Made by a program: the position numbers and the translations under genes
In this document: in pieces, positions 61,101 through 64,000 of the stretch
Layout: every line of letters starts with the position of its first letter
How positions within the stretch are numbered: the stretch's first letter is position 1
Notes under the pieces: model-generated
Database searches by the model: none
What the model was told of the DNA's origin: nothing
The model's input: only the letters and a program-made list of their open reading frames with translations
Assembly (NCBI RefSeq): GCF_900102365.1
Contig: NZ_FOIN01000001.1
Coordinates: 102,064-166,063 of the forward strand
Reading direction: 5' to 3'
Origin: Thomasclavelia cocleata
GTDB taxonomy: Bacteria > Bacillota_I > Bacilli_A > Erysipelotrichales > Coprobacillaceae
Length of the DNA: 64,000 bases

Positions 61101-62192
61101 ATGAAAATTAATATTCATGCTGGTCATGCACCATACAATATGATTGGAAGTGGTGCTGTTGGTATTTTAAACGAAAGTGTTATTGACAGACAAATCAAAG
61201 ATGAAGTTATTTCTAAGCTAAGAGTATTGGGACATGTAGTTTATGACTGTACATGTGAGTTTGGCGGATCGGCCAAAACGATTTTGAAAGATATTTGTTC
61301 AAAAGCTAATACTAATGAAGTAGATTTAGATGTTTCAATTCATTTAAATTGTTATGATGGCAATGCTAAAGGCACAGAAGTATTGATTTACAAGTTAGGT
61401 AATAAAGCCGAACAATATGCTAATGCTATCGTAAACGAAATTGCGTCATTGGGATATGTTAATCGTGGTGTAAAAGCACGTAAAGATTTATATTATTTAA
61501 AAAATGCAACAAATTCAGCTTTGCTTATTGAAGCATTCTTTTGTGATAATCAAGAAGATGTTAACAGATTTAATTTAGATGAAATAGCTAATGCAATTGT
61601 TAAAGGAATTACTGGTGAAATACCAAACACAACAATACCTAAAGACGAGTTATCCCCTACTCCTTCTCAAACTTCTAAGAATTATTTATCTAAAGGCGAT
61701 AATAACAACGATGTAAAAGATATGCAAACAAAACTAATTGCATGTGGATATACATGTGGCAAATCGGGAGCTGATGGCAACTTTGGAGAAAATACTTTAT
61801 CAGCAGTTAAATTATTTCAAAAGGATAATGGTTTAACAGTTGATGGTTTGGCTGGTCAAAAAACTATTTCCAAATTAAACTCTGTATATGCTAATAGAAA
61901 TAATTCTAATGATTGGGTAGCTAGATTACAAGCTGAATGCAATACACAAGGGTTTAGTAAACAAAAAGTAGATGGTATTCCAGGTAAAAATACTTTAAAT
62001 GGATGTCCAATATTAAAAAAGGGAACTAGAGGTAATCTAACTAAATTACTTCAGGAAAAACTTGGTATTAAAGCAGATGGTATTTTTGGAGATAATACTA
62101 AAAATGCAGTAATCAACTACCAAAAAAAACATAGTCTAACTCCTGATGGTATAGTTGGAACCAATACATGGAAAAAGTTATTAAATTTGTAA
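61101..62192 (+). CDS. Endolysin: N-acetylmuramoyl-L-alanine amidase with two PG-binding domains
   Basis: 363 aa. Amidase_3 domain at 1-175 with zinc ligands HAGHA (His6 or His9), Glu in NESVID (about 25), SIHLNCYDG (His, about 81) and catalytic Glu in LIEAFFCDN (about 141). Thr/Pro linker, then two PG_binding_1 modules (LSKGDNNNDVKDMQTKL ... DGLAGQKTISKL, about 195-258; and LTKLLQEKLGIKADGIFGDNT ... DGIVGTNTWKKL, about 312-361). It cleaves the glycan-stem peptide bond at lysis. AGGAGG upstream. Confidence 0.92.
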   Translation: MKINIHAGHAPYNMIGSGAVGILNESVIDRQIKDEVISKLRVLGHVVYDCTCEFGGSAKTILKDICSKANTNEVDLDVSIHLNCYDGNAKGTEVLIYKLGNKAEQYANAIVNEIASLGYVNRGVKARKDLYYLKNATNSALLIEAFFCDNQEDVNRFNLDEIANAIVKGITGEIPNTTIPKDELSPTPSQTSKNYLSKGDNNNDVKDMQTKLIACGYTCGKSGADGNFGENTLSAVKLFQKDNGLTVDGLAGQKTISKLNSVYANRNNSNDWVARLQAECNTQGFSKQKVDGIPGKNTLNGCPILKKGTRGNLTKLLQEKLGIKADGIFGDNTKNAVINYQKKHSLTPDGIVGTNTWKKLLNL

Positions 62193-63028: not shown

Positions 63029-63030
63029 AA

Positions 63031-63109
63031 AAAAATAGGGCTGGGATACATTGGTAGATTATTACTTATTTAAAAGTAAATCTAATTAGTATATCCCAGC
63101 CCTATTTTT
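63031..63109 (+). terminator. Very strong terminator of the late operon
   Basis: Perfect 18-bp stem AAAAATAGGGCTGGGATA (63031-63048) with its complement at 63092-63109, a nested TTACTT/AAGTAA stem in the loop, and T7. It closes the structural-lysis operon. Confidence 0.95.
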
Positions 63110-63189
63110 TTGCATTTTAATAAAATTAAATAAAAAAACACTTTGTATATTATACATTTTGTGTTAAACAAGAGATAATATAATCAAAT

Positions 63190-63524: not shown

Positions 63525-63675
63525 TTGTAAAGACATTTTTAATATATTATAAACAATCATTTTTTTCATCTTCTATTATCCGCCTATAAAATACTTTATC
63601 TTTTTAATTTTTTATGATAATATTCTTATACATAGTCGAGTCCTCTCTAAATATCATCTACGACTATGTTTTTTT
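63525..63675 (+). ncRNA. Candidate small RNA with terminator
   Basis: Promoter TTGTAA (63525-63530), 17 bp, TATAAA (63548-63553). Terminator CATAGTCG/CGACTATG (63631-63638 / 63661-63668) with T7. About 115 nt, AT-rich, no ORF. Confidence 0.45.
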
Positions 63676-63699: not shown

Positions 63700-63728
63700 T
63701 TTACATAACTATATTTATTTGCTATAAT
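63700..63728 (+). promoter_or_regulatory. Promoter of the CRISPR-like unit
   Basis: TTTACA (63700-63705), exactly 17 bp, TATAAT (63723-63728). The predicted start (about 63735) falls at the first base of repeat 1. Confidence 0.75.
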
Positions 63729-63736
63729 ATTAATAG

Positions 63737-63884
63737 TTAATAGCAACACGAGGTGTATTGAAATTTAGATATAATTTTATATCTTTATTTTAATAATTTA
63801 ATATCAACACATGGTGTATTGAAATTTTATTATTACCTCGATCGATAGCTATAACTTTAATATCAACACAAGGTGTATTGAAAA
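63737..63884 (+). CRISPR. Three-repeat CRISPR-like mini-array
   Basis: 28-nt repeats at 63737-63764, 63798-63825 and 63857-63884: TTAATATCAACAC-NN-GGTGT followed by ATTGAAAT. Differences are almost confined to the loop (GA, AT, AA); repeat 1 has one more change and repeat 3 ends AAAA. ACAC/GTGT form the hairpin stem. The ATTGAAA end and overall form resemble type I-B repeats of Bacillota and Fusobacteria. Two spacers of 33 and 31 nt. No cas genes in the window. Confidence 0.6.
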
Positions 63885-63910
63885 AGAACTTTAAATTAAG
63901 TTCTTTTTCT
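63880..63910 (+). terminator. Terminator fused to third CRISPR-like repeat
   Basis: GAAAAAGAACTT (63880-63891) pairs with AAGTTCTTTTTC (63898-63909). The left arm includes the GAAA end of repeat 3. Confidence 0.85.
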
Positions 63911-63936: not shown

Positions 63937-64000
63937 ATGCAAAAAAAATGCATAGTTTGTGGAAAGATTTTTAATTCCAAAAATGGTGTTATTACTTGCT
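63937..64000 (+). CDS. Zinc-ribbon protein, N-terminal part (cut by window edge)
   Basis: From ATG 63937 (AAAGGAG upstream) the frame reads MQKKCIVCGKIFNSKNGVIT and then Cys, so it has a CxxC pair with a further Cys, as in zinc ribbons and the start of HNH-type proteins. Only 21 codons are visible. It follows the CRISPR-like unit on the same strand. Confidence 0.6.
   Translation, partial: MQKKCIVCGKIFNSKNGVITC

Follow-up and report, generated by a model that had tools for sequence, protein, structure and literature searches.

A prophage of Thomasclavelia cocleata carries a small RNA gene that, on balance, appears to mimic the type I-B crRNAs of its host and to act as an RNA anti-CRISPR, with one unit that copies a host guide and a second that serves as a decoy. 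Through it the virus probably switches off or redirects the CRISPR machinery of its host. The window, the whole stretch of 64,000 nucleotides that was analyzed, is part of a 239-kb chromosomal contig. The RNA gene lies within a prophage of about 98 kb, in agreement with the earlier note on this DNA, which had placed it on a phage.

Organization and setting of the RNA gene

The gene is a compact transcription unit that runs in the order promoter, repeat 1, spacer 1, repeat 2, spacer 2, repeat 3 and terminator. Its features and immediate neighbors are as follows.

63640-63675, + strand: terminator-like hairpin ACATAGTCG...CGACTATGT followed by seven T, found by direct reading of the sequence
63700-63728, + strand: promoter TTTACA-17-TATAAT with an extended -10 (TG before the second hexamer), 11/12 consensus
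63735-63764, + strand: repeat 1, AGTTAATAGCAACACGAGGTGTATTGAAAT, found by pattern search and alignment with the host repeat
63765-63795, + strand: spacer 1, AT-only hairpin AGATATA-ATTT-TATATCT, fold -4.2 kcal/mol, z -1.9 to -2.05
63796-63825, + strand: repeat 2, ATTTAATATCAACACATGGTGTATTGAAAT, found by pattern search and alignment with the host repeat
63826-63854, + strand: spacer 2, TTTATTATTACCTCGATCGATAGCTATAA, its guide common to the host ectopic mini-array C48:224849-224865(-)
63855-63884, + strand: repeat 3, CTTTAATATCAACACAAGGTGTATTGAAAA, merging into the terminator, found by pattern search, alignment and folding
63880-63909, + strand: intrinsic terminator, 12-bp stem then Ts, overlapping the 3' end of repeat 3, found by scan and folding
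63939-64000 in the window (L004:1001-1324), + strand: next prophage gene, double CxxC zinc ribbon with a weak match (1.7e-9) to phrog_1271 HNH endonuclease

The promoter described in the earlier note was borne out at 11 of 12 consensus positions, and no second promoter-like site above 9/12 occurs in the region. Its sequence is identical in two further isolates (L042, L044), which carry identical copies of the unit. All three repeats are present at spacings of 61 and 59, as had been reported; their length, given before as 28 nt, becomes 30 nt upon comparison with the host repeat. The terminator joined to repeat 3 is also real. Two terminators were found where 0.2 are expected in shuffles, repeat 3 together with its terminator folds with z -4.1, and the whole transcript folds with z -5.5. 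The hairpin at 63640-63675 has a loop that exceeds what the terminator scan allows and was read by eye; with its seven T it would insulate the RNA unit. The sequence CGAGGU in repeat 1 can pair with ACCUCG in spacer 2, which could mask the guide or be due to chance.

The prophage is bounded by a tyrosine-recombinase-like gene adjoining lepA (L007) and, on the right, by host genes from acpS on (L004), both identified by reading. IMG/VR lists one copy, from a different isolate, with a called length of 96 kb, and the region has no match in the GenBank phage collection. The RNA unit is located downstream of an endolysin gene (61101-62192) and ahead of a short gene set at the right end of the prophage. 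The zinc-ribbon gene, which encodes 108 amino acids from the ATG at 63939 or 116 from an upstream ATG, is outside the unit. At window positions 63029-63111, two 20-nt arms, AAAAAAATAGGGCTGGGATA ... TATCCCAGCCCTATTTTTTT, form a perfect inverted repeat around 43 nt, a candidate bidirectional terminator or small structured RNA.

Homology of the repeats with host type I-B arrays

The host has an intact type I-B operon, cas6b-8b-7b-5b-3b-4-1-2, in which Cas6b, Cas8b (2e-168), Cas7b, Cas5b, Cas3b and Cas1b were identified by family match and cas4 and cas2 by position. It also has a type III-A system (Cas10a, Csm3). Five CRISPR loci bear leaders, namely the array of the I-B operon and C24, C43, C52 and C62, which are arrays or short arrays with the same repeat. 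The host repeat is GTTTAATAACAACATAAGATGTATTGAAA(T/C) and the core of the prophage repeat is CAACACNNGGTGTATTGAAA(T/A). Two core differences between them are fixed, T to C and A to G, and both fall at the closing pair of the stem, where they are read as a compensatory change.

The 20-nt core pattern occurs three times in the 2.96-Mb genome, always in this unit, and its reversed control does not occur. With up to three mismatches it yields 46+9 matches, nearly all of them in true CRISPR arrays of the same genome, again with none for the control. Comparison with the CRISPR loci of the host, a check proposed in the earlier note, thus found similar repeats.

The ACAC/GTGT stem that had been described exists, though in a single repeat it is weak (-1.6 kcal/mol) and no better than in shuffles. 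A weak stem in a lone repeat is usual for type I-B. Because a single repeat folds weakly, the claim for the stem is carried by comparative evidence. Among 19 distinct repeats from the prophage, its host, and other phage or mobile arrays, 98.7% of stem cells are paired and 11 cells are changed on both sides (0/500 shuffles). The closing pair is C-G in 9/19 repeats and T-A in 9/19, with one mismatch. The statement that the repeats differ mainly in the loop holds among the three prophage repeats; against the host repeats, the compensatory T-A to C-G pair must be added. The prophage repeat is therefore homologous to that of I-B arrays in the same cell, with their 8-nt ATTGAAAN handle, and its stem is maintained by compensatory change. 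A crRNA-like unit for the host type I-B system is well supported by these same-genome repeats, by the intact operon and by the related phage mini-arrays described below.

A self-target in the prophage

The prophage contains a protospacer for a spacer of its own host.

936-970, + strand: protospacer within the prophage for spacer 8 of the host C24 array (L018_8), 33/35 nt, 5' flank TCA

The two mismatches are at positions 9 and 30, and the flank is the same as that of the Peptoniphilus target described below. An intact I-B operon together with a TCA-flanked self-target is expected if the CRISPR system of the cell is inhibited. Self-targeting appears to be tolerated in this host, and its CRISPR may be blocked. 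Alternatively, the mismatches could be escape mutations.

Spacer 2 and the ectopic guide of the host

At about 224.8 kb of C48 the host has an ectopic unit (L022) in which a diverged CRISPR leader is followed by one spacer between two degenerate repeats. The guide of this unit, TTTATCATTACCTCGATTG, and prophage spacer 2, TTTATTATTACCTCGATCG, are identical at 17/19 nt and differ only at nt 6 and 18. Among all other host spacers the best match to spacer 2 is 9/19, and 14/19 is the most that any other 19-mer of the window reaches. Type I guides are unpaired at every sixth nucleotide, as is established for Cascade. CreA tolerates changes at nt 6 and 12 and at no other position of nt 1-12 (PMC8501985).

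The sequence TTTATNATTACCTCGAT has exactly two occurrences in the genome, each directly behind ATTGAAAT. Since the alignment of spacer 2 with the ectopic guide begins exactly at the repeat end in both units, the relation is one of shared guide identity and not that of a spacer to its protospacer. It is unlikely that the host acquired its spacer from the phage array, given the exact register at the repeat end and the lack of a TCA before the phage spacer. The pattern of repeat plus guide is absent from 97 related genomes. Since a diverged CRISPR leader is still present, the ectopic host unit could be an ordinary array that has decayed instead of a regulator. Spacer 2 shares its guide with a host mini-array whose CreR-like regulatory role is putative.

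Target searches for the two spacers

The PAM used in the searches, TCA, was taken from the Peptoniphilus creR target and from the self-target in the prophage. A PAM from gut phage protospacers was dropped; the shared spacer pattern gave 0 matches in IMG/VR. The seed was defined as nt 1-5 and 7-11, and the target form of spacer 2 with its PAM is TCA-TTTATNATTACNTCGAT. The earlier note had proposed that both spacers be searched against phages and that the array might act against rival phages. The search, run on IMG/VR, returned 0 protospacers for either spacer, so a weapon against rival phages is unsupported.

Elsewhere in the prophage there is no target for either spacer with TCA or ACA plus seed. 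Neither spacer has a seed match with PAM at the host I-B cas6 promoter, nor has spacer 2 one at the III-A promoter. Because PAM plus seed at a host cas promoter, which is found in Peptoniphilus, is lacking in this host, the element is not filed as a proven CreR mimic. A seed match 400 nt upstream of cas6 (L017:6737) was rejected; it lies inside a degenerate gene, has no TCA, and the promoter is about 370 nt downstream.

Genome-wide, 93 seed-perfect sites for spacer 2 were checked for PAM, intergenic position and extended pairing. Fourteen of the 93 are in non-coding sequence or small ORFs (two are the guides themselves); these match at no more than 12/16 positions and none has TCA. The best candidate with PAM and seed is a TCA site within an agrB-like gene, named from reading its translation without a family search, where about 0.07 such matches are expected. 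A second, with ACA, is at the start of a 69-aa membrane ORF. Both were rejected as proof of a spacer 2 target, genome-wide matches being at chance frequency. In congeners no spacer 2 target rose above control level. Neither a toxin gene nor a promoter target was found beside the host ectopic unit, and an adjoining toxin gene with PAM and seed in its promoter, as in CreTA, was found beside neither unit.

A phage copy of a regulatory guide in Peptoniphilus

A mini-array (L043) was found on a phage-type contig of Peptoniphilus sp. BV3C26 (L048/L043, L078) that has amidase and holin-like genes by reading. This host has its own creR-like mini-array directly before the I-B cas6, with guide AGCAAATGATATTTAG. 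A TCA-flanked creR target, AGCAAATGATAATTATATGG, is located 112 nt on from the mini-array, between the cas6 promoter and start. In the phage unit, AGCAATTGATATTTAA is present three times in tandem. Within the 16-kb cas locus, only the creR guide and its target match this spacer at all 13 pairing positions of nt 1-15, and the differences are confined to nt 6 and 12. Therefore at least one phage copies the CRISPR brake of its host. Tandem identical spacers are not like immune memories. Peptoniphilus sp. BV3C26 is probably the cleanest example of the whole class.

Related mobile units and self-folding spacers

Other mobile units with a similar repeat are L039, L041, L043, L047, L113, L046 (one repeat) and plasmid CP026602. 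The last repeat is fused to the terminator in L041, L043, L047, L113 and the plasmid, and nearly so in L039. By direct reading, most units end in a repeat whose stem is kept and whose handle is lost to the terminator, as expected if this repeat supplies the last Cas6 cut only. L046, from Scybalomonas, is a single repeat plus terminator. L041 is directly behind a peptidoglycan-binding gene (by reading), and L113 has similar repeats and coding-looking spacers. Further candidates (L036, L037, L038, L040, L045, L049-L051, L223-L227) were rejected as chance matches inside genes.

Self-folding spacers (z<-1.5) make up 7/17 of those in mobile arrays vs 2/59 ordinary host spacers (p 0.0002, or p 0.003 with the three L043 copies counted once), in sets that are small and picked by repeat similarity and at a z threshold of -1.5 that was not preset. 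The plasmid, CP026602.1 (L232; 38.8 kb, Clostridiaceae bacterium 14S0207), has a degenerate array with strongly self-complementary spacers. Its repeats are AACACATGGTGT twice, CCGCATGGCGG, and AACACAACGTGT plus terminator.

Proposed mechanism and alternatives

In the favored explanation, a transcript of about 175 nt would start at repeat 1 and end at the terminator fused to repeat 3. Host Cas6b would cut after the repeat hairpins and leave the 8-nt handle ATTGAAAT, and the two resulting crRNA-like RNAs would load Cas5/7/8. Unit 2 would be a seed copy of the host ectopic (CreR/CreA-like) guide, and the loaded Cascade would be spent on or held at the regulatory site of that guide instead of attacking DNA. 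Unit 1, with its self-folding spacer and no target, would probably be a Racr-like decoy occupying Cas6 and Cascade. For this host we infer both the target of spacer 2 and the inhibition of immunity. An RNA-based anti-CRISPR was one of the readings offered in the earlier note; it is the one favored here, and it is sharpened by the copying of the ectopic guide seed in spacer 2 and of the creR guide in the Peptoniphilus phage.

Two spacers between repeats that the host system can read would also suit a viral mini-array in interviral conflict, whose crRNAs direct host I-B against competing phages or superinfecting relatives, and the coding-looking spacers between the similar repeats of L113 fit such a role. 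We consider it unlikely here, as neither spacer has an IMG/VR protospacer, spacer 1 folds into a hairpin, spacer 2 shares its guide with a unit on the host chromosome, and the repeats are degenerate, whereas host-identical repeats are reported for such arrays (PMC11656645). A pure Racr-like decoy, in which the repeats titrate Cas6 or Cas7 and the spacers are irrelevant, would account for the excess of hairpin spacers and for the single-repeat version in Scybalomonas. It leaves unexplained why 17/19 nt of a host guide are kept with changes at unpaired positions only, and why the creR guide is copied three times in Peptoniphilus, and it too seems unlikely.

The shared guide might instead repress a toxin or another host gene in the manner of a CreA antitoxin; the prophage would then either safeguard the cell while Cascade is occupied or adjust some function of the host. 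The host ectopic unit with its degenerate repeats does resemble creA (PMC8501985), and the agrB-like site (TCA) and the start of the 69-aa membrane ORF (ACA) are possible targets. These candidates, however, are as many as expected by chance, and no toxin gene or promoter target lies beside the host unit, which makes both the protective and the tuning version quite improbable. That the unit is a functionless relic of a decaying captured array, as its degenerate repeats and the lack of a target for spacer 1 might indicate, is very improbable; a strong promoter and a terminator are retained, the stem is kept by compensation, and the unit is identical in two other isolates.

Relation to known systems

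Shmakov and colleagues reportedly described CRISPR-derived regulatory mini-arrays, CreR, in 2023, the phage versions of which are said to be predicted to inhibit effector expression. The work (NAR 51:8150) is cited in PMC13326750. Like these mini-arrays, the prophage unit is phage-carried, has degenerate repeats around a guide with seed-only complementarity, and shares that guide with a host ectopic unit; its Peptoniphilus parallel has a clear match before cas6. Unlike them, it is made up of two units with three repeats in all, the spacer of one unit being a hairpin, and no cas-promoter target was found in this host.

Like Racr (PMC10651486), the unit is a repeat mimic that a prophage carries downstream of a promoter; it lacks cas genes, and its host has the matching subtype. 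Racr is a solitary repeat unit, however, and three repeats and two spacers are present here. The design of the Racr survey left out repeats clustered within 100 bp (PMC10651486), so multi-unit elements are not part of that catalogue. As in CreA of CreTA (PMC8501985, PMC9458426), pairing positions are conserved while nt 6 varies, and the repeats are degenerate; in contrast to CreA, no toxin partner was found and the location is a prophage. Virus-borne interviral mini-CRISPR arrays (Medvedeva et al. 2019), to the extent that they are described in PMC11656645 and PMC10651486, likewise have 1-2 spacers, no cas genes and host-type repeats. In those arrays the spacers match related viruses and the repeats are identical to host repeats, whereas here no viral protospacers were found in IMG/VR, the only collection searched, and the repeats are degenerate.

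An element of this kind is already predicted; what is newer is a copied guide altered at unpaired positions only, and self-folding spacers. We raise tentatively the possibility that, in Bacillota, short self-terminating arrays on temperate phages and plasmids unite self-folding decoy crRNAs with units for host regulatory guides, sometimes in tandem, and that these arrays jam the I-B effector and reinforce CRISPR autorepression. They would form a two-pronged class of RNA anti-CRISPRs excluded from the Racr survey by design. Within such a class the host-derived guides might, and this is equally tentative, be altered at non-pairing nucleotides only. If this is true, phages go beyond blocking CRISPR proteins and pull a host-built CRISPR brake by copying its regulatory guide, and RNA anti-CRISPR catalogues restricted to solitary repeats miss multi-unit elements. 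The corresponding search rule would be degenerate repeats, a terminator fused to the last repeat, and a guide whose only differences from a host ectopic guide fall on every sixth nucleotide.

Other features of the host CRISPR loci

In host array C52 (L020), spacers 13 and 14 are adjacent and identical, and spacers 2 and 5 differ as though drawn from homologous phages. In the genus, creR is absent beside cas6, and a conserved cre-like (CcpA) motif, TGTAAGCGCTTTTGC, is found there instead, immediately before the cas6 promoter (L017:7060-7120, also in congeners L080-L084). The version at this position in G010 (L085) is GAAAGCGCTTG. The motif suggests CcpA (carbon) control of the I-B operon in the genus.
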